Shown here: positions 13,422-26,610 of the stretch, piece after piece
Layout: every line of letters starts with the position of its first letter
How positions within the stretch are numbered: position 1 is the first letter of the stretch
Assembly: GCF_029626235.1 (NCBI RefSeq)
Contig: NZ_JARUBO010000005.1
Coordinates: 5,986,001-6,050,000 of the forward strand
DNA length: 64,000 bases
Reading direction: 5' to 3'
DNA from: Micromonospora sp. WMMD1120
Lineage (GTDB): Bacteria > Actinomycetota > Actinomycetes > Mycobacteriales > Micromonosporaceae
Translations under genes and position numbers: made by a program
The notes under the pieces: generated by a model
What the model saw: the letters and a program-made list of their open reading frames with translations, nothing else
Told to the model about the DNA's origin: nothing
The model's database searches: none

Positions 13422-13592
13422 TGCTCGCCTCGCCTTCTCTAGATCCTGGGAGCGGCCGAGCCTATCCCTGCGCTCTGCCGCCCGGCGTCCCGACAGGCTC
13501 GCGACCGCCCGCGGACGGACCTGATCTGTCCATTACCGGTTCATGACAATTCGGGGATCGGGCGCGGATATCCGGCTGGCAGCTTTCGACGG

Positions 13593-14735
13593 GTGATCCA
13601 ACAGCTCTCTCCCATCGGGTCCGGACCCGCCGCGACGGAGCCCGACGCGACGCGCGTCGGGTTCCGTCGCAGGTACCGGACCGCACCCACCGCGCACCGA
13701 TCCCAACGGGCGCGATGGGCCGACGCCGCGAAGGGCGCCTGCATCATCCTCGTCGTCCTGTGGCACGTGGTGGTGAAGGACTACCTCCAGGTCGACTGGC
13801 ATCTCGGCGCGCCGGCGCCGGGCCTGTGGGGAGCGCTGGGTGAGCAACTCCTGCCGCTGCGGATGCCGTTGTTCTTCACCATCTCGGGCGTCTTCGCGGC
13901 GAACGCCGTACGCCGGCCGTGGCGGGTCGTCGCGCGCGGCCGGATCGCCGCCTTCCTCTACCTGTACGCCGTCTGGCTGCTGATCCACACCGTGGTCCTC
14001 ACCGCGCTGCCGGACCTGCCGACCGACCGCGCCGGCACACCCCTCGGCCTGCTGGAGCAGCTCACCGTCACGCCGTCCAACCTGTGGTACCTGTACGCGC
14101 TGGCGCTGTACTTCACCATCGCCAAGGCCACCCGTGGCCTGCCCCGGGCGCTGGTCCTGGCACCCGCCGCGGCGCTGTCCGCCGTCACCGCCGCCGGCCT
14201 GCTCGACACCCCGGGCAACCGGGGCGGCCTCTACCAGAACCTGGTCTTCTTCCTCGCCGGCCTGTTCCTGCGACAGCGGATCCTCGGCTGGGCCGCGACC
14301 GCCGATCGTCGCCGGCTGCTGGCGGCCACCGTCGCGTACGCCCTCGCGCTGGCGGCCATGGCGGCGGCCGGCGCGCAGCGGTGGTTCGGCGTGTGGCCGG
14401 CGGTCTCCGTGCTGGCAGTGATCTTCGGCATAACCGCCGCTGCCCAGCTCGTACGGTGGTCGGCGCTCGGCGAACCGCTGGCTAGGCTCGGCCGCGTCAC
14501 GTTGCCGATCTACGTCGTCCACATGCCGGTCCTGGCGCTGCTGCACCGGCTGCTCCTCGTACCGGTTTCCGAACTGGGTCGGTCCGCTCAGGGCCTGATC
14601 GTGCTCGGATATCCGGTTCTGCTGACCGGCGCGGTGATCGGGCTGAGCCTGGCGGTGCACCGTGGCCTGCTGGTGCTGCGGGCGGGCTGGCTGTTCGCGC
14701 TGCCCGGCACGCGGCGCGCGGAGACGGCCCGATGA
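13593..14735 (+). CDS. Membrane acyltransferase-3 family protein (VanT-membrane-domain-like)
   Basis: 380-residue integral membrane protein of the acyltransferase-3 (OafA/WecH/Fuc4NAc-transferase-like) family, about ten membrane segments. The N-terminal fold signature is visible as RWADAAKGACIILVVLWHVV, with the conserved histidine of the first helix, followed by PLFFTISGVFAANAVRRPW. Family members move acyl groups or amino acids across the membrane; the N-terminal half of enterococcal VanT (membrane serine racemase) belongs to the same fold. Its stop overlaps the racemase start as ATGA, so the two proteins are made together, as if VanT had been split at the domain border. GTG 13593 is the longest reasonable start; the ribosome-binding site is weak. 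Confidence 0.85.
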   Translation: MIQQLSPIGSGPAATEPDATRVGFRRRYRTAPTAHRSQRARWADAAKGACIILVVLWHVVVKDYLQVDWHLGAPAPGLWGALGEQLLPLRMPLFFTISGVFAANAVRRPWRVVARGRIAAFLYLYAVWLLIHTVVLTALPDLPTDRAGTPLGLLEQLTVTPSNLWYLYALALYFTIAKATRGLPRALVLAPAAALSAVTAAGLLDTPGNRGGLYQNLVFFLAGLFLRQRILGWAATADRRRLLAATVAYALALAAMAAAGAQRWFGVWPAVSVLAVIFGITAAAQLVRWSALGEPLARLGRVTLPIYVVHMPVLALLHRLLLVPVSELGRSAQGLIVLGYPVLLTGAVIGLSLAVHRGLLVLRAGWLFALPGTRRAETAR

Positions 14736-15874
14736 GCACCCTGGCCGAGGCGGTCGTCGACCTCACCGCGATCGCCAGCAACGTCCGGACGATCGCGTCG
14801 GTCACCGGGACCGACCTGATGGCCGTGGTGAAGGCCGACGGCTTCGGCCACGGCGCGGTACAGGTGGCCCGTGCCGCGCTGCGTGCCGGCGCGGCCTGGT
14901 TGGGGGTGACCTCGGCGGCCGAGGCGTTGACGCTGCGCGCGGCCGGTGTGACGGCGCCCACGTTGAGCTGGCTGCACGGCCCGACCGAGGACTTCGGTAA
15001 GTTGATCAACGCCGGCGTCGACGTCGGCGTGTCGACGACGACGCATCTGCACGCCGTCGCCGACGCGGCCCGTCCGCTCGGCGTGCCGGCGATGGTGCAG
15101 CTCAAGGCGGACACCGGGTTGTCGCGCAACGGCGCCACCGGGACCGACTGGCCCGAGTTGGTCGCGTGGGCCCGCAAGTACGAACGGGAGGGCGGGATCC
15201 GGGTGCGCGGCGTGTGGTCCCACCTCGTCGACGCCGACCTGCCCGGCGCGCCGCAACTGCACCGGCAGGTGGCCGCCTTCGAGGAGGCGCTGCGGGCCGG
15301 GCGGTCCGCCGGTCTCGACCCGGAGCTGACCCACCTGGCCAACTCCGCCGCCGCGCTGTCCGCGCCCGCGACCCGCTTCGACCTCTGCCGGGTCGGCATC
15401 GCGCTGTACGGCGTGGACCCGTTCGGCGCGGGCGACCCGGGCAGGTACGGGCTACGGGCCGCGATGACGGTGCGGACGAGCGTCGTCAACGTCAAGCGGG
15501 TACCGGCCGGCACCGGCGTCTCCTACGGACCCGACCACGTGACGGGCGCACCGACCACGCTGGCGCTGCTGCCGCTCGGCTACGCCGACGGGCTGCCCCG
15601 GGCCGCGAGCGGCAGCGCCTCGGTGTGGCTCGCCGGCCGGCGGTGCCCGATCGTCGGGCGCATCGCGATGGACCAGTGCGTGGTCGACGCCGGAGACCTG
15701 CCGGTGGCGATCGGCGCCCCGGTCGTGGTGTTCGGCCCCGCCGAGGATGACCAGAGCCCCCCGACGGTCGCCGAGTGGGCGCGCTGGGCCGGGACCAACC
15801 CGCACGAGATCTTGACCGGCATCGGGCCCCGGGTGGCCCGCCACCACCTCCACGAAAGGGCACGCGTCTCATGA
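14732..15874 (+). CDS. Alanine-racemase-family PLP enzyme (Ala or Ser racemase)
   Basis: 380-residue fold-type III PLP racemase. The PLP lysine is Lys34 in VVKADGFGHG and the second catalytic base Tyr265 in GVSYGPDHV, with RIAMDQCVVD near the C-terminal domain. Two positions differ from the usual pattern: the phosphate-binding Tyr of KADGYGHG is Phe38, and the late TINYEI-type motif reads TNPHEI with Pro366 where Bacillus Alr has Tyr354. These may affect substrate choice. Starts at ATG 14732 overlapping the acyltransferase stop and ends overlapping the ligase start. It could be a housekeeping Alr, but the coupling to a membrane acyltransferase and a D-Ala-D-X ligase recalls VanT serine racemase (inference). 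Confidence 0.9.
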   Translation: MSTLAEAVVDLTAIASNVRTIASVTGTDLMAVVKADGFGHGAVQVARAALRAGAAWLGVTSAAEALTLRAAGVTAPTLSWLHGPTEDFGKLINAGVDVGVSTTTHLHAVADAARPLGVPAMVQLKADTGLSRNGATGTDWPELVAWARKYEREGGIRVRGVWSHLVDADLPGAPQLHRQVAAFEEALRAGRSAGLDPELTHLANSAAALSAPATRFDLCRVGIALYGVDPFGAGDPGRYGLRAAMTVRTSVVNVKRVPAGTGVSYGPDHVTGAPTTLALLPLGYADGLPRAASGSASVWLAGRRCPIVGRIAMDQCVVDAGDLPVAIGAPVVVFGPAEDDQSPPTVAEWARWAGTNPHEILTGIGPRVARHHLHERARVS

Positions 15875-16893
15875 CAACCCGACTGGCAGTCCTGTACGGC
15901 GGGCAGAGCGGTGAGCACGACGTGTCGTGCCGCTCGGCGGCGAGCATCCTCGCCCACCTGGACCCGGCGCGCCACCAGGTCACCGAGGTGCTCATCGACC
16001 GCGACGGCGGGTGGCACGTCGGGGGCCGTCCGACACCGCTGCCGCAGGCGTTGCGCGTCCTGCGCGACCAGGACGTGGTGTTTCCGGCCCTGCACGGACC
16101 GTACGGCGAGGACGGCATCGTGTCGTCGCTGCTGGAATGGCTCGGCGTGCCGTACGTCGGCAACGGCGTCTTCGCCAGCGCCGCCGGCATGGACAAGGCT
16201 GTCACCAAGCGCCTGCTCGCCGCGGCGGGCCTGCGGGTCAGCCCGGGGGTGACGCTGCGCCCGGACGAGGACCTGTCGGCCGCCGAACGGGACCGACTGG
16301 ACCTGCCGGTTTTTGTCAAGCCGGCGCGTGCCGGTTCCAGCCTGGGCGTGGTCAGGGTGGACGACTGGGCCGGGGTTCCGGCCGCGGTCGGGCAGGCCCG
16401 GCGGTTCGACCCGAAGGTCCTCGTCGAGCAGGGCGCGCGGGGCCGGGAGATCGACGTGGCGGTCCTGCAACACCCGGACGGTCGGGTCGAGGCCGGCCCG
16501 CCGTTGGAGATCCGGGTGACCGGCGCCGGCTTCTTCGACTACGACGCGAAGTACGACGGCGGGGCCGTCTTCCAGATTCCCGCCCCGCTCGACGCGGCGA
16601 CCACCGGGGTGCTCCAGGACCGCGCGATCCAGGCGTTCCGCGCGCTGGACTGTCGAGGGCTGCTGCGGGTCGACTTCTTCCTGCCCACGGAGGGGTCGAC
16701 CGAGCCCATCGTGAACGAGGTCAACACCTTCCCCGGCTTCACCGCCGCGTCGCAGTTTCCGCAGATCTGGGAGCGGGCCGGCATCGGGTTCGCCACGCTG
16801 ATCGACATCCTGATCTCGGGCGCGCTGGCCGACGAGGGCCGGGGCCGCCACGGTGGCCCGTCCCGGCAGGCGCGAGCGGTCGACCTGGTCTGA
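15871..16893 (+). CDS. D-alanine--D-X ligase (F-type active site)
   Basis: 340-residue ATP-grasp ligase making the terminal D-Ala-D-X dipeptide of peptidoglycan precursors. Glu15 (GQSGEHDVS), the Ser of AGSSLGVV, Lys150 (FVKPARAG) and the metal-binding NEVNTFPGF are present. The omega-loop residue equivalent to Tyr216 of E. coli DdlB is Phe222 (GFFDYDAKY). From family knowledge, Tyr favours D-Ala-D-Ala while Phe is found in D-Lac- or D-Ser-forming ligases of vancomycin-resistant lactic-acid bacteria and VanC. Position 295 is Gln (TAASQFP) where DdlB has Leu and VanC-type ligases, as I recall, Arg. Starts at ATG 15871, overlapping the racemase stop, with GAAAGGG upstream. Housekeeping Ddl is the alternative reading. 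Confidence 0.9.
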   Translation: MTTRLAVLYGGQSGEHDVSCRSAASILAHLDPARHQVTEVLIDRDGGWHVGGRPTPLPQALRVLRDQDVVFPALHGPYGEDGIVSSLLEWLGVPYVGNGVFASAAGMDKAVTKRLLAAAGLRVSPGVTLRPDEDLSAAERDRLDLPVFVKPARAGSSLGVVRVDDWAGVPAAVGQARRFDPKVLVEQGARGREIDVAVLQHPDGRVEAGPPLEIRVTGAGFFDYDAKYDGGAVFQIPAPLDAATTGVLQDRAIQAFRALDCRGLLRVDFFLPTEGSTEPIVNEVNTFPGFTAASQFPQIWERAGIGFATLIDILISGALADEGRGRHGGPSRQARAVDLV

Positions 16894-16911
16894 GCGCCGG
16901 TCGGCGCCCGG

Positions 16912-17421
16912 TCACCGGACGGAACACCGCCGGGGCGGTTGGGCGCCGTCGGGCCCGACGATGGTGACCGCCGTCCAGACCTCCGCCAGGCCGGACTGGG
17001 CGGCGGCGTCGACGGTGGTGCAGATGATCTGGTCGGTCGCGTGCGCCGACAACGTCAGCGCCGCCCCGGTCGTCCGCACGGTGAGGCCACCGGACTGCCC
17101 GGCTCCCGACGTCACGGTGACGGCCGCACCGATCCCGGCCGGTACCTCGCTGGTCAGGCCCTGGTCGCGCTCGTCCCGCTCGGGGCCGGCGGCGAGCAGG
17201 GCGAGCGCCTGCCCCGGGGAGGTGGCGCCGCTCGCCGTCGGACGCAGGACCAGCACCAGGTCGTCCCCCGCGAGCAGGTAGATCGTGCTGCCCTGGGACG
17301 GGCCGCTGACCGCGGAGCGACCGGTGATGACCTCGCTGGGCCGTACCCCGCAACCCGCCGCGCCCAGGGTCAGCAGCAGGGCGCCGGCGAGCAGGGCGCG
17401 TCCGGCCCGGTGGCCGGTCAC
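16912..17421 (-). CDS. Small lipoprotein with GerMN-like segment
   Basis: 169-residue predicted lipoprotein. The signal peptide MTGHRAGRALLAGALLLTLG ends in lipobox GAAGC (Cys24). The stretch PGQALALLAAGPERDERDQG followed by LTSEVPAG resembles the GerMN domain found in spore-germination GerM and in LpqB, the lipoprotein encoded beside the MtrAB two-component system. Its GTG start (17421) overlaps the kinase stop (GTGA). Genetic position suggests it modulates the kinase, as LpqB is proposed to do for MtrB (inference). Confidence 0.8.
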   Translation of the reverse strand: MTGHRAGRALLAGALLLTLGAAGCGVRPSEVITGRSAVSGPSQGSTIYLLAGDDLVLVLRPTASGATSPGQALALLAAGPERDERDQGLTSEVPAGIGAAVTVTSGAGQSGGLTVRTTGAALTLSAHATDQIICTTVDAAAQSGLAEVWTAVTIVGPDGAQPPRRCSVR

Positions 17422-18875
17422 CGGGCGCCTCCGGCGTCGGCCGTGTCGCGGGGCAGGCGGAGCGTGAACACCGCGCCACCGGCCGGACCGTTGCCGGCGA
17501 CGAGGGAGCCCTGTCGCTCGCCACGACGGTGCAGGCGCGCGTTCTCCCAGGCGATGGCGAGGCCGAGGCCGCTGCCCTCGGAGCGGGTCCGCGCGGTGTC
17601 GGCCTTGTAGAAGCGGTCGAAGACGTGCGGCAGCACCTCCGGGTCCAGTCCCGGTCCCTGGTCGGCCACCTCGACGGTGACCCAGTCCGCGTCGGCGTCC
17701 AGGCGTACGGACACCGGCTCGGCGCCGTGCCGCAGGGCGTTGCCGACCAGGTTGGCGACGATGACGTCCAGTCGGCGGGGGTCGAGCCGGGCCACCACAC
17801 CGGGTGGCAGCTCCGCGCGTACCCGCTCGTGCCAGCCGCGGACGCGCAACGTCGCGGCCACCGCGGCGGCGACGTCCACGTCGTCCGGGGCGAGGCGCGC
17901 CGTGCCGGAGTCGAACCGGCTCACCTCGATCAGGTCGTTGACGAGCCGGGTGAGGTTCTGCGTCTCCTGGCTGACCAGCCGGGCGGCCCGGCCCGCGTCT
18001 CCGGGCAGGTGCTCCGCCTCCTCGTCCAGCACGTCGGTGACCGCCGTCATCGCGGTCAGCGGGGTACGGAGTTCGTGCGAGACGTCGGCGACGAAGCGGC
18101 GGGCGTCCGCCTCCATCCGGCGCAGTTCACCGACCTGCCGCTCCAGGGTGCCCGCGGTGTCGTTGAAGGTCCGGGCCACATCGGCCAGCTCGTCCACGCC
18201 CCGCACCGTCAACCGGGTGCTCAGGTCGCCCTCGCCGAGCCGGAGCGCCGCCCGGCCCAACTCGCGGACGGGCCGCAGCACTCCCCGGGCAGCCAGCAGG
18301 GCCAGCAGGACGGCCAGGACCAGGGACAGGCCCCCGGTCAGCCACGCCAGGGTGGCGAGCCGGTCGATGCTCTGCTGCTCGGCCACGAGACTGCGCGCCG
18401 AGTAGACCTCCAGGCCGGACGATCGGGACACCCCGGCGGATCGGTCGAGGCGCAGTTGGGTGCCGATGAACAGCATGGGTTGCCCGTCCACCGTGACCCG
18501 CTGCCAGGCGAGGCGGCCGTCGCCGACCTCGCGGCGCAGGGCGGGGGTGACCGGGTCGGGCGCGGACGTGCCCGACGACCGCATGTCCCGGTAGACGACC
18601 ACCGCGAACCCCTCCCGGTCGGAGAGCCGCTGGGCCAGCAGGTCGAGTTCCTTCTGGGTCGGCGGGAGCTGCACGATCGGGTAGACCCTGCCGAGCTGGT
18701 CGGTCAGCGACGCCACCGCGGCGTCCTGCGCCTGTTGCAGGATGACGGTGCGGGCCTGGACGTAGCTGCCGCTGGCCACCACCGCCGTGGTGGTCACCCC
18801 CAACAACGCGAACGCCAGCAGCAGCCGGACCCGCAGGCCGGAAATTTGGGCGCCGGCCCGTCGCCAGGACGTCAC
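17418..18875 (-). CDS. Sensor histidine kinase (HAMP, HisKA, HATPase)
   Basis: 485-residue membrane sensor kinase. Transmembrane helix 1 is at about residues 16-36, an extracytoplasmic sensor of about 130 residues follows, helix 2 is near residues 178-197 and a HAMP domain at about 198-250. The phospho-acceptor is His267 in DVSHELRTPLTAM; the N box is NLVGNALRHG, G1 VADQGPGL and G2 GSGLGLAI. It overlaps the response regulator stop (GTGA at 18872-18875) and the downstream lipoprotein, making an RR-HK-lipoprotein module like mtrAB-lpqB or vanRS. Ligand unknown; the position opposite the racemase/ligase genes suggests envelope or glycopeptide stress. Confidence 0.94.
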   Translation of the reverse strand: MTSWRRAGAQISGLRVRLLLAFALLGVTTTAVVASGSYVQARTVILQQAQDAAVASLTDQLGRVYPIVQLPPTQKELDLLAQRLSDREGFAVVVYRDMRSSGTSAPDPVTPALRREVGDGRLAWQRVTVDGQPMLFIGTQLRLDRSAGVSRSSGLEVYSARSLVAEQQSIDRLATLAWLTGGLSLVLAVLLALLAARGVLRPVRELGRAALRLGEGDLSTRLTVRGVDELADVARTFNDTAGTLERQVGELRRMEADARRFVADVSHELRTPLTAMTAVTDVLDEEAEHLPGDAGRAARLVSQETQNLTRLVNDLIEVSRFDSGTARLAPDDVDVAAAVAATLRVRGWHERVRAELPPGVVARLDPRRLDVIVANLVGNALRHGAEPVSVRLDADADWVTVEVADQGPGLDPEVLPHVFDRFYKADTARTRSEGSGLGLAIAWENARLHRRGERQGSLVAGNGPAGGAVFTLRLPRDTADAGGAR

Positions 18876-19567
18876 AGCGGCCCGAACCGGTATCCGAAAC
18901 CGCGTACGGTCTGGATGTAGACCGGCGCCGAGGAGTCAGTCTCGATCTTGGCGCGCACCCGCTGGACGCACGCGTCCACCAGACGCGAGTCGCCGAGGTA
19001 CCCGTGCTCCCAGACGGCGGTCAGCAGTTGCTGACGGCTGAGCACCTGGCCGGGCGTGTGCGAGAGTTCGAGCAGCAGTCGCAACTCCGTCGGGGCGAGG
19101 CTGACCGGCTTGCCGTCCCTGCTGACCACCAACGCCGCCCGGTCGATCGTCAACGCGCCGTGCTGCTCGGGGCCGGCCCGCTCGCCGCCGGCACGCCGCG
19201 ACCCGGCGCCGGTGCGCCGGAGCACCGCGCGGATGCGGGCCTCGAGCACCCGGGCCTGGACGGGTTTGACCACGTAGTCGTCGGCGCCGGCCTCCAGGCC
19301 CGCCACCACGTCCATGTCGTCGTTGCGGGCGGTGAGCATGATGATCGGCAGGTCGCCGAGCTGCCGGATCCGCCGGCAGACCTCGAACCCGTCCATCCCG
19401 GGCAGCATGAGGTCGAGGACCACGACGTCCGACGGGCTCCTGCGCAGCCGCTCCAGCCCCTGCTCGCCGGTCTCCACCGCGTGCACCGTGTGGCCCTGCC
19501 GGGTGAGCGCCAACTGCAGCCCGTCGCGCACCGTCTGGTGGTCTTCGATCAGCAGCACCTGGGACAT
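18872..19567 (-). CDS. OmpR/PhoB-family response regulator
   Basis: 231-residue response regulator. The receiver domain has the acidic pair in LLIEDHQTV, phospho-acceptor Asp52 (VVVLDLMLPGMDG), Thr79 (MLTAR) and Lys101 (YVVKPV). A C-terminal winged-helix domain (SLAPTELRLLLELSHTPGQ ... RGFGYRF) binds DNA. The linker is unusually long and Gly/Ala/Arg-rich (about residues 113-135). ATG 19567 is 28 bases after the PAP2 gene, so the four genes PAP2-RR-HK-lipoprotein form one operon. Cognate kinase is the overlapping gene. Confidence 0.95.
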   Translation of the reverse strand: MSQVLLIEDHQTVRDGLQLALTRQGHTVHAVETGEQGLERLRRSPSDVVVLDLMLPGMDGFEVCRRIRQLGDLPIIMLTARNDDMDVVAGLEAGADDYVVKPVQARVLEARIRAVLRRTGAGSRRAGGERAGPEQHGALTIDRAALVVSRDGKPVSLAPTELRLLLELSHTPGQVLSRQQLLTAVWEHGYLGDSRLVDACVQRVRAKIETDSSAPVYIQTVRGFGYRFGPL

Positions 19568-19595
19568 GTCGCCAAGTATCCCCTCATGACGTTGT

Positions 19596-20570
19596 TTAAC
19601 GTTTGATCGATGGCGGTGCGTGCTCGCGCGGCGGCCGCGGCACCGCGAAGTCCGCCGACCGCACCAGGAACACCACCGAACCGATCAGGAGCACCGTCGA
19701 CCCGCCGGCCGCCACGATGGCGACGAGCAGCCCGGACCGCACCGACGCGACCAGACCGGGCACGACCACCAACACCACCCAGACGAGCACGACCAGCCCG
19801 ACCGCCGCCTCGGCCAGTCGTCGCCCCGGTCCGCCGGCGTCCGCACCGGTGGCCGCGACGCGGTCCCCGGGCAGGGCCGCCAACGCGGCGGCGGCCAGGC
19901 AGAACACCGTCACGCCCAGCAGCACGCCACCGAGCGCGTCACTGAACCGGTGCCAACCCGCGATCATGGTGGCGGCGGCGATCACCGACACCCCGGCCGC
20001 CCCCGGCACCGCCAGCCACCGCCGGGCCCACCCGGGCAGCACCAGCAGGAACGCCAGCAGCAGGGCGGTCGCCGCCGCGACGTGGCCGCTCGGGAAGCTG
20101 TTGTGGGTCGTCGAACTCTCGATCTGGAGATCCGGGCGGGGCAGCGCCGACTTCAGCGCGCCGGCCACCAGCACCGTGCCCAGGACCAGGCCCACGCCGA
20201 CGACCGCCGCCACGAGTCGCCGGCGGAGCGCACCCACCAGCACCACCAGAGCGAGTACCGCGGCGATCAGCGTCGGGCGGCCGAAGGCGGCCAACACGGT
20301 CTTGGCCGGACCCACCAGGGTCGTCCGCTGCTCGTACCCCCCACCCCGTTCGGCGGGCGGCAGGAGCACGCCGTCCAGCCACTGCCCGGCCGCCGTCCGC
20401 ACGAAGACGGTGGCGGTGAGGGTCAGCGCGAGCAGACCACACAGCGCGGCCGCGAGCAGCCGGCGTCCCAGCGGCGTCGCGGCGCGGGCGTGCGGCGCCG
20501 GTCGCGCCGGCGACGGGCCGGGCGTCGGCCGACCGACGGAGTACGACGATCCGATGGACATGGCGACCAT
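19596..20570 (-). CDS. PAP2-family membrane phosphatase
   Basis: 324-residue membrane protein of the type 2 phosphatidic-acid phosphatase family, which dephosphorylates lipid phosphates such as undecaprenyl pyrophosphate or phosphatidic acid on the outer face of the membrane. The three catalytic motifs are KSALPRPD, PSGHVAAAT and GWHRFSDALGG. A Pro/Ala-rich cytoplasmic N-terminus precedes the first helix, and three extra hydrophobic helices follow the catalytic core. ATG 20570 is used; ATG 20561 is an alternative. First gene of the operon with the two-component pair, consistent with a role in the lipid carrier cycle of cell-wall synthesis (inference). Confidence 0.88.
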   Translation of the reverse strand: MVAMSIGSSYSVGRPTPGPSPARPAPHARAATPLGRRLLAAALCGLLALTLTATVFVRTAAGQWLDGVLLPPAERGGGYEQRTTLVGPAKTVLAAFGRPTLIAAVLALVVLVGALRRRLVAAVVGVGLVLGTVLVAGALKSALPRPDLQIESSTTHNSFPSGHVAAATALLLAFLLVLPGWARRWLAVPGAAGVSVIAAATMIAGWHRFSDALGGVLLGVTVFCLAAAALAALPGDRVAATGADAGGPGRRLAEAAVGLVVLVWVVLVVVPGLVASVRSGLLVAIVAAGGSTVLLIGSVVFLVRSADFAVPRPPREHAPPSIKR

Positions 20571-20673
20571 GCTCGTCCCGCCGGGTCCGCACGGCGTCCC
20601 CGGATTGTCTTGGTTCTGTCACAACCACCCCCCACCGCCGCCGGAGAGCGGATCGTCGGCGGTGGACCGGCCG

Positions 20674-20719: not shown

Positions 20720-20819
20720 GAGATGAGCCGCCACTAGGGTCAAGACGTTGATCGATGTTTCGGTCGCGGTGCGAAAAATCCATCCGGAGTACGGTGGGGG
20801 AACCGGAAGGTGTGGGGGA

Positions 20820-21323
20820 ATGCAGGCAACTCCAGTCGCCAGCCTGGTCATCGGCATCGCATCCTCGCCAGCCGAACGCCGACATCTGGCTCGGCTGCTC
20901 GGCGGCAGTGACGCCTTCCTGATCGTCTCGAACGTCGACCAGGCCCGGGAGTTCCTCGGGGTGGTCCGGGCGTCCCCCGCCAGCACCGCCGCGCCGCCGG
21001 CCACGCGCGCGGAGGTGACGCCGAGCCCGCAACCACCGCCGGACCTGGCCGTCGACTCCGACCGCCGGGTGCTGCGCTGGCGTGACCGGGAGATCGACCT
21101 GACCCGACTGGAACACGACGTCCTGCTCTGCCTGGTGCACGAACCCGGGCAGGTCTGGACGTACGAGCGGCTGCACCTGGAGGTCTGGGGCAACCGGCAC
21201 CTCGGCCGCAACTCCGACATGCACTCGGTCGTCCGCCGGGTGCGTGGCAAGCTCGCCCGGCTGAACGCCGCCGCGACGATCCACGCGGTACGCGGCGTCG
21301 GCTTCCGGCTCGCCCCGGTCTGA
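20820..21323 (+). CDS. Winged-helix transcriptional regulator (OmpR-type DNA-binding domain only)
   Basis: 167-residue regulator. The N-terminal about 60 residues (MQATPVASLVIGIASSPAER...) look like a receiver-fold remnant without phospho-acceptor aspartate. The C-terminal domain (VLRWRDREIDLTRLEHDVLL to RGVGFRLAPV) is a Trans_reg_C winged helix with the usual WTYERLHLEVWG and RRVRGKLARL helices. ATG 20820 has GGAAGG 9 bases upstream; the frame is open from TTG 20748 but that part is poor. A clear paralogue lies at 26035-26610 on the other side of the protease gene. Target genes unknown; the neighbouring protease is the obvious candidate. Confidence 0.85.
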   Translation: MQATPVASLVIGIASSPAERRHLARLLGGSDAFLIVSNVDQAREFLGVVRASPASTAAPPATRAEVTPSPQPPPDLAVDSDRRVLRWRDREIDLTRLEHDVLLCLVHEPGQVWTYERLHLEVWGNRHLGRNSDMHSVVRRVRGKLARLNAAATIHAVRGVGFRLAPV

Positions 21324-25819: not shown

Positions 25820-26034
25820 TGGTGCTGCCTCCCTCAGAACGACCCAGGGTGTAGTGGGCCACGAGGAAAGGTGTGAAAGATTCGCCATGCCTCCCCCATG
25901 CACCGCGCGGGTCACGCCGGTTGCCCGACTGGACACTATGATCGAGAAGAACGGCTGATCAAGAACTTGCCGTGAGCAACTTGTCGCTAAGAGTCGCAGT
26001 GCTGGCGGCGCGCTTGCCAATCATTGTCAATAGC

Positions 26035-26610
26035 ATGACGAGAGTTGGGCAGGGATGTCCATCGATCCCGGGCGGTGCTGTGGCCGAGGATGACGAGGCG
26101 GCGGTGGACAGGGGTGATCCGGCCGACGAGCCGTTCCCCCTGCTGATCGCGGTGACGCCGTCGCCGGCCGAACGCATTCGTCTGGCGGAGCGCCTGGACG
26201 GCATCGCGCCGCTGCTGCTGGTGGCCGACCTCGACGAGCTACGCCGGCTGATCGGTGTGCCGCGTCAGGCCGCCGCGCCCGCGTCGGAGACCGCGCCGGC
26301 CGCCGCCCTGGTGATCGACTCGGCGCGGTCCGCCGCCCGCTGCGGCGACCGGGAGGTGGACCTCACCCGCCTGGAGCACGACCTGCTGACCTGCCTGATC
26401 ACCGAGCCGGCACGGGTGTGGAGCTACGCCGAGTTGCACCGGACGGTGTGGGGGGACGAGGGACGCGGACGCAAGGCGGACGTCCAGTCACTGGTGAAGC
26501 GGCTGCGCCGCAAGCTGCACGACCTGGGCACCGACGCCGCCATCGACGTGGTACGCGGCGTCGGGCTGCGCCTGACCGATCACCAGCAGGCGCGGGTCGA
26601 ACGCGCCTGA
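26035..26610 (+). CDS. Winged-helix transcriptional regulator, paralogue of 20820-21323
   Basis: 191-residue form shown (several starts possible). The part from PFPLLIAVTPSPAERIRLAERL onward matches the neighbour at 20820 in domain order: degenerate receiver-like start, linker, then winged helix (DREVDLTRLEHDLLTCLITE ... RGVGLRLTD). In-frame starts are GTG 25972, ATG 26035, GTG 26080 and GTG 26104; none has a convincing ribosome-binding site, so the true protein may be up to 23 residues shorter. Divergent from the protease gene with about 215 bases between. Confidence 0.82.
   Translation: MTRVGQGCPSIPGGAVAEDDEAAVDRGDPADEPFPLLIAVTPSPAERIRLAERLDGIAPLLLVADLDELRRLIGVPRQAAAPASETAPAAALVIDSARSAARCGDREVDLTRLEHDLLTCLITEPARVWSYAELHRTVWGDEGRGRKADVQSLVKRLRRKLHDLGTDAAIDVVRGVGLRLTDHQQARVERA

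Follow-up and report, generated by a model that had tools for sequence, protein, structure and literature searches.

A candidate Alr-type D-Ala-D-X module, distinct from VanT/VanG, in Micromonospora sp. WMMD1120

Introduction

Which dipeptide would be made by an alanine racemase and a D-alanine ligase that are encoded, together with a membrane protein, opposite a two-component system? The question is raised by a locus in the 7.15 Mb genome of Micromonospora sp. WMMD1120, located within a window of 64,000 nucleotides (bases 5986001-6050000 of the main contig; all positions below are those of the window). Three forward-strand genes, AT3 (13593..14735), alr (14732..15874) and ddl (15871..16893), encode a membrane acyltransferase-3 protein (AT3; PF01757, 109 bits, 2.7e-31), an Alr-fold racemase with altered entry and pyridoxal 5′-phosphate (PLP) residues (PF01168 and PF00842) and a Ddl-family ligase (PF01820 and PF07478; ATG at 15871). 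Both junctions, AT3/alr and alr/ddl, are ATGA overlaps. The genes converge tail to tail with a reverse-strand operon encoding a PAP2 phosphatase, an OmpR-family response regulator (RR), a sensor histidine kinase (HK) and a lipoprotein. Coordinates and Pfam matches agree on this layout, and the description of the genes in the initial annotation is confirmed. That annotation had interpreted the set as a VanT cut at its domain border with a VanC/VanG-type ligase, placed under an inducible sensor and making D-Ala-D-Ser (or D-Ala-D-Lac) precursors.

We propose, with a probability of roughly 0.56, that the locus is an accessory, envelope-stress-inducible module of cell-wall remodelling which makes D-Ala-D-X instead of D-Ala-D-Ala. 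Since two enzymes are altered at specificity residues, the terminal residue of the wall peptide would probably be swapped, most likely to D-serine, which is our best guess for X. The putative module may thereby blunt vancomycin-type antibiotics. Because neither enzyme groups with VanT/VanG, the operon would represent a second, Alr-type D-Ala-D-X module and not a split VanT.

Results and Discussion

The ligase and the racemase

The ligase alignment contained 88 rows. The clade of the window ligase was sampled by 21 of the 120 homologues listed (the window copy included) and 11 loci. The 33 rows called housekeeping are the best Ddl matches outside this clade, with surroundings checked for L017 only and with two identical pairs. 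Phe222 of the window ligase corresponds to Tyr210 of DdlB and to position 252 of VanG. Phe occupies this column in 32/32 rows of the window clade, in 8/8 actinobacterial VanA-type rows, in the single VanG-like row and in 7/7 ligases of the pdx operons discussed below (L018:6810-7937 and relatives). Tyr is found in 33/33 housekeeping rows, in 5/5 other rows, in DdlB and in the distant Ddl-like gene of L019, which bears out the replacement of the housekeeping Tyr by Phe222. At column 295 (Leu282 of DdlB) the window clade has Gln throughout (32/32); the housekeeping rows carry Met (30), Leu (2) or Gln (1), the VanA and VanG rows Arg, and the pdx ligases Met. At column 212 the window clade is likewise uniform with Leu (32/32), and the corresponding residues are Ala (23), Gly (8) or Ser (2) in housekeeping Ddl, Asp in VanA and VanG, and Gly in the pdx ligases. 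The 120 closest homologues listed all share Leu212, Phe222 and Tyr228, and 119 of them Gln295, with one gap. Equating Phe222 with Tyr216 of DdlB was rejected, as numbering and alignment put Phe222 at Tyr210, and Tyr216 corresponds to the unchanged Tyr228. We take Asp243, Phe252 and Arg324 of VanG to be its D-Ser site, with Phe261 of LmDdl2 and Phe250 and Arg322 of VanC2 presumably as counterparts.

The ligase and racemase trees were quick ones, calculated without bootstrap and accompanied by long-branch warnings. In the first, the 32 rows form a clade with an SH-like approximate likelihood ratio test (SH-aLRT) value of 100, which joins actinobacterial housekeeping Ddl (90). The VanA and VanG rows group together (98), apart from the window clade, and the eight VanA-type rows are likewise separate from it. 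The phylogeny thus does not uphold a descent of the ligase from VanG.

For the racemase, 19 of the 120 homologues listed (the window copy included) and 9 loci were used, along with 31 housekeeping rows chosen by similarity to the alr gene of L020; the alr of L067 was excluded, as it lies in two pieces. The window racemase has Phe for Tyr43, Asn356 for Ile352 and His358 for Tyr354, and retains Lys34 and Tyr265. Across its clade the catalytic Lys39 and Tyr265 are kept in 27/28 rows, with one gap, and the catalytic residues are kept in the ligase clade as well. Tyr43 is replaced by Phe in 27 rows (one gap), Ile352 by Asn in 23 and Ser in 3 (Ile in 2), and Tyr354 in 28/28 rows, by His in 21 and Asn in 7; column 284 has Tyr in 15 rows and Phe in 13. 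The 31 housekeeping rows show Tyr43, Ile352, Tyr284 and Tyr354 throughout. Among the 120 closest homologues listed, the Tyr354 column holds His in 99, Asn in 19, Gln in one and a gap in one. The Asn of some clade members is also that of the VanT-like protein of L143, the one locus which, together with printed alignments of PDB structures, made up the VanT/VanG comparison. The racemase clade (28 rows, SH-aLRT 98) lies with actinobacterial Alr rows (88), separate from the single VanT-like row. In passages of PMC3146814, the matching entry residues are called strictly conserved across five Gram-positive structures; the title of one reference there links Tyr354 to specificity and to the evolution of resistance. 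The equivalence of S. pneumoniae Tyr352, Ile350 and Tyr44 with G. stearothermophilus Tyr354, Ile352 and Tyr43 is our own matching.

Gln295, Leu212 and His358 differ from the VanG and VanT residues, and this would suit a ligase that forms D-Ala-D-Lac or another D-Ala-D-X than D-Ala-D-Ser, the acid being supplied by the racemase or by a different enzyme. We regard such a product as rather unlikely: the D-Lac ligase model fails (score given below), and the VanA-type omega loop is not present, since Lys227-Tyr228 is kept where the eight VanA-type rows have Glu and Ser, Asp, Asn or Glu. The VanA-type ligase of a VanHAX (D-Ala-D-Lac) system was not found at the locus; VanH was not searched for.

Housekeeping copies and distribution

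The initial annotation had offered a housekeeping alr-ddl pair as its alternative, and a second ddl and alr were looked for in the genome. Four strong Ddl matches and two strong Alr matches were found. One further ddl has a gpsA gene at a distance of about 5 kb (L017), another lies within a pdx operon (L018), and the other alr is located near tsaE (L020). The window pair is neither the sole copy nor part of the housekeeping clade of the genus, and its enzymes form clades of their own, which sets it apart from the housekeeping genes. The fourth Ddl match (L019:7419-8489) is a very divergent Ddl-like ATP-grasp gene with Gly at the Ser150 column, and similar matches occur in many genomes of the genus.

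In a search of 61 genomes, 37 of them Micromonospora (the genomes are related and the counts are not independent events), a ligase orthologue of at least 72% identity was present in 10/61, all of the genus, and the racemase at 1e-120 in 9/61. The kinase, with at most 26 candidates scored per genome, was found at 1e-100 in 10 genomes, namely 9/10 ligase carriers (not G032) and G040, a member of another genus with no close ligase. The whole arrangement of AT3-alr-ddl facing lipoprotein-HK-RR-PAP2 is kept in 7/9 relatives fetched (L051-L057; PAP2 is cut by the contig end in L056) and differs in G032 and G016. In G016 the clade ligase has no alr beside it, the racemase is absent from the genome at 1e-120, and AT3 is located in the pdx operon, which may be the source of the acceptor of this ligase. 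The closest named ligase orthologue among the matches listed is from Micromonospora tarensis (91%). Among the best 80 loci, related neighbouring alr and ddl genes occur in Paractinoplanes, Asanoa, Catellatospora, Catenuloplanes, Plantactinospora, Promicromonospora and Amycolatopsis. Among the open-licence papers listed, no description of the AT3-alr-ddl operon was found; supplements lay outside the search and may mention it. We regard the operon as a real and conserved accessory module, probably under regulation, whose specificity residues are altered.

Promoter element and two-component control

A block common to 11 AT3 promoters, that of the window included, stands 35 bp ahead of the aligned start at 11/11 loci. 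In the window it is a direct repeat with an 11-bp period and a putative response-regulator site (13531..13557, forward strand). A pattern built from this site and a second one upstream of the PAP2 gene (20597..20623, reverse strand) matches only these two sites in the whole genome at no more than three mismatches. A matrix was then derived from the 11 AT3 promoters, and 255,748 positions of DNA from the window genome were scanned. The PAP2 promoter site is the best non-self match with 16.5 bits, followed by 14.0 (L019) and 6.5. This margin is modest, and the weight is carried by recurrence: the PAP2 promoter takes the second rank in 9/9 relatives scanned (10.3-21.1 bits, against 0.9-10.7 for the third rank). 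As the matrix finds the PAP2 promoter in the window and in all nine relatives, the link of the two-component operon to AT3-alr-ddl is likely real. The top match falls 5′ of ddl in L059 (19.9) and 5′ of alr in the two loci from Asanoa (25.8 and 24.6), and all three have an RR of the same type as that of the window. Next to an RR of another type the highest values are 11.1 (L058, at a different place), 7.8 (L066), 6.8 (L067) and 5.7 (L072). The match between murG and alr in L073 (11.8) is level with some PAP2 sites.

The PAP2 phosphatase (19596..20570, reverse strand; PF01569) is encoded by the first gene of this operon. It is followed on the same strand by the RR gene (18872..19567), whose product is CseB-like (NCBIfam CseB 275 bits, cut-off 350; VanR-ACDEGLN model 167 bits), the gene of the MtrB-like HK (17418..18875; HAMP, HisKA and HATPase_c; NCBIfam MtrB 279 bits, cut-off 450) and the lipoprotein gene (16912..17421). 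Lipoprotein, kinase and OmpR-type RR resemble the CseABC and MtrAB envelope systems, and CseB and MtrB are the best models; unlike in these systems, both proteins score below cut-off and the genes stand beside a ligase operon. The idea of an inducible sensor gains from the common promoter element; the CseB-like RR is a difference from the VanG/VanC/VanL operons. The Cys24 near the N-terminus of the lipoprotein is conserved in the alignment. Its GerMN label holds through orthologues (PF10646 in 4/7 family members, best 4.3e-5), whereas the window copy has no Pfam match. We take the lipoprotein to be a parallel of CseA and LpqB.

AT3 and the pdx operon

The pdx operon (VanRS-PALP-ddl-vanX) is described from Micromonosporales in PMC8698665, in parts of which a D-Ala-D-Ser-like role is suggested and no AT3 is named. 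At 1e-40, AT3 was found in 21/61 genomes, all of the genus and never in more than one copy. It lies inside the alr-ddl operon in 8/21 of these. In 12 of the remaining 13 genomes, AT3 ends 1.4-1.7 kb from a pdx-type ddl, and in the thirteenth (G009) it is near a contig end. The order RR-HK-AT3-PALP-ddl-vanX is seen in five fetched loci of this kind (L204, L205, L206, L207 and L211), from genomes that lack AT3-alr-ddl; three genomes with AT3-alr-ddl show the pdx order RR-HK-PALP-ddl-vanX. The AT3 orthologues of pdx operons show 59-67% identity. With the RR encoded next to alr-ddl, the pdx RR shares 78% identity in L067 and 60-63% in L071 and L072. In G024, AT3-alr-ddl is present and no pdx-type ddl was listed. 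Phe at column 222 of the pdx ligases may mean altered acceptor specificity there too.

The initial proposal of a VanT cut in two fits the gene layout, and a descent from VanT/VanG is not supported: the enzymes fall with actinobacterial Ddl and Alr, similarity of AT3 to that of VanT is weak (E 0.11 with the window protein and 0.001 with that of L057), and AT3 shifts position and partner from genome to genome. In the AT3 tree (18 rows) the alr-ddl rows are without starred support as one clade, and no direction of movement is given. AT3 and alr as the two halves of a split VanT were accordingly rejected. The AT3 protein has D44-x-x-K47-x10-H58, with the three residues invariant in 13/13 aligned sequences, and so differs from the family motif DxxRx10H (passages of PMC12423673 and PMC9833829) in Lys for Arg; retention of this motif favours a working acyltransferase. 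The role of the AT3 domain in VanT is described as unknown, or not considered, in parts of PMC9558356 and PMC12423673. The presence of AT3 in one of two operons offers a natural test of it.

Compared with the VanG/VanC/VanL operons for D-Ala-D-Ser, the locus shares AT3, an Alr-fold racemase, a Ddl-family ligase, a two-component system and Phe at the VanG 252 column. In contrast, ligase and racemase belong with actinobacterial Ddl and Alr, columns 212 and 295 hold other residues, no VanXY stands beside the ligase, the AT3 order varies and the RR is CseB-like. By the curated models, neither a D-Ala-D-Ser ligase of the VanC/G/E/L/N family nor a VanT-family racemase is present, and VanXY or VanX is missing next to the ligase. 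Curated models exist for VanT catalytic subunits that stand alone (VanT-L), and the Tyr354 column is changed as it is in VanT. With pdx the locus shares the genus, a Phe222-type ligase, AT3 orthologues in many operons and relatives with M15 and VanRS-like genes; it differs in having Alr instead of the PLP enzyme PALP (PF00291) and a ligase of another clade, the pdx enzymes having Gly at 212 and Met at 295. For Allonocardiopsis and Murinocardiopsis, PMC8698665 describes racemase-ddl-vanY-vanRS clusters and suggests D-Ala-D-Ser. By description alone, they are similar in that racemase and Ddl-like genes adjoin a VanRS pair, and differ by the presence of vanY; according to the same text, such clusters are rare in other orders.

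Neighbours of related alr-ddl pairs

An M15 dipeptidase gene adjoins the alr-ddl pair in L058 and L075, a MurG-type glycosyltransferase gene in L058, L066 and L073, and VanRS-like genes some related pairs, with a pdx-type RR in L067, L071 and L072. An M15 gene is also found in the pdx operon of the window genome. These partners, and the AT3 that pdx also has, are easier to reconcile with D-Ala-D-X remodelling than with the main rival, a D-cycloserine-tolerant second Alr-Ddl pair whose product would still be D-Ala-D-Ala. In this rival view, both enzymes, being the two targets of D-cycloserine, a D-Ala analogue, are altered where the drug would sit. Passages of PMC6744398 name Alr and Ddl as targets and affinity-lowering Alr changes as the commonest route, in part of PMC7691350 an extra ddl confers resistance and makes only D-Ala-D-Ala, and in the S. 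pneumoniae enzyme PLP is bound by both residues that we equate with Tyr43 and Tyr354 (PMC3146814, in part). The G016 ligase, with no adjacent alr, also speaks against it, and we consider it unlikely.

Evaluation of the proposed module

Several observations weigh against D-Ala-D-X. The ligase scores above the cut-offs of D-Ala-D-Ala ligase models (358 of 262, 300 of 245.65 and 254 of 243 bits) and below those of the VanG (237 of 495), D_ala_D_ser (202 of 520) and D_ala_D_lac (212 of 550) models. The racemase exceeds the alr cut-off (250 of 168) and stays below those of VanT (vanT-G-Cterm 201 of 460, vanT-L-cat 93 of 750). The ligase keeps the equivalents of Tyr216, which VanG too retains, and Ser150, residues tied to D-Ala-D-Ala only in the relevant part of PMC7691350. 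Its Gln295 and Leu212 are not those of VanG, the housekeeping row L042 likewise has Gln at column 295, and the pdx ligases share only Phe222 among the changed columns. VanX/VanXY was not found among the gene calls of the window operon, the L058 dipeptidase is far under the curated VanX cut-off (38 of 320), and G001, G013, G026 and G035 carry a pdx-type ddl and no AT3 at 1e-40, so that AT3 is not always needed. The last two points slightly lower our estimate for D-Ala-D-X and slightly raise that of a rival in which diverged paralogues boost normal D-Ala-D-Ala synthesis under stress. The passed model cut-offs and the kept catalytic residues suit such a boost; the specificity columns, changed almost uniformly in both clades, argue against it, and we regard it as improbable. 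For the reading in the initial annotation, the separation from housekeeping Ddl by Phe222 and the M15, MurG-type and VanRS-like neighbours in relatives are favourable. A VanT/VanG descent is not supported, and D-Ser in preference to D-Lac or another acceptor, like glycopeptide tolerance, is a prediction.

For the D-Ala-D-X module we suggest the following route from the sequence data. The CseB/MtrA-like two-component system would answer an envelope signal, and its RR would bind the direct repeat at both promoters. The Alr-like enzyme, with catalytic residues kept and Tyr354 changed, would supply a different D-amino acid, with D-Ser as the likeliest, instead of D-Ala or along with it, and the ligase, with three changed acceptor-site columns, would couple this amino acid to D-Ala. 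The product would enter precursors via MurF. Clearing of D-Ala-D-Ala would fall to the VanX-like dipeptidase encoded in the pdx operon, at another site in the genome. AT3 may serve this module or pdx, by acyl transfer or L-Ser uptake. If so, actinobacterial housekeeping enzymes gave rise once more to D-Ala-D-X remodelling, with its own regulator and in common soil bacteria, and Leu212/Phe222/Gln295 with His or Asn at Tyr354 could serve as searchable signatures of such modules. A bolder and doubtful extension is that D-Ala-D-Ser has been reached twice within one genus, by two unrelated racemases (fold III Alr-like and fold II PALP) and by two Phe222 ligases of separate evolutionary origin, with one interchangeable AT3 at the centre that acts as a true acyltransferase outside the membrane, e.g. 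on the new serine hydroxyl or on lipid II; such acylation would also account for the AT3 half of clinical VanT.

Additional observations

A short AT3-family fragment, probably a remnant, lies by the alr-ddl, MurG-type and M15 genes of L058 (L058:6687-7199; PF01757 26.5 bits, cut-off 31). In Promicromonospora (L075:5601-9704), a PGA_cap protein and a membrane protein that is AT3-like by eye, with no Pfam match, are encoded between alr and the M15 gene. In the window itself, the genes at 20748-21323 and 25972-26610 encode proteins with an OmpR-type DNA-binding domain as sole Pfam match, about 42-44% related across relatives, and flank the gene of an S8 protease of 1541 residues that carries Kelch repeats.

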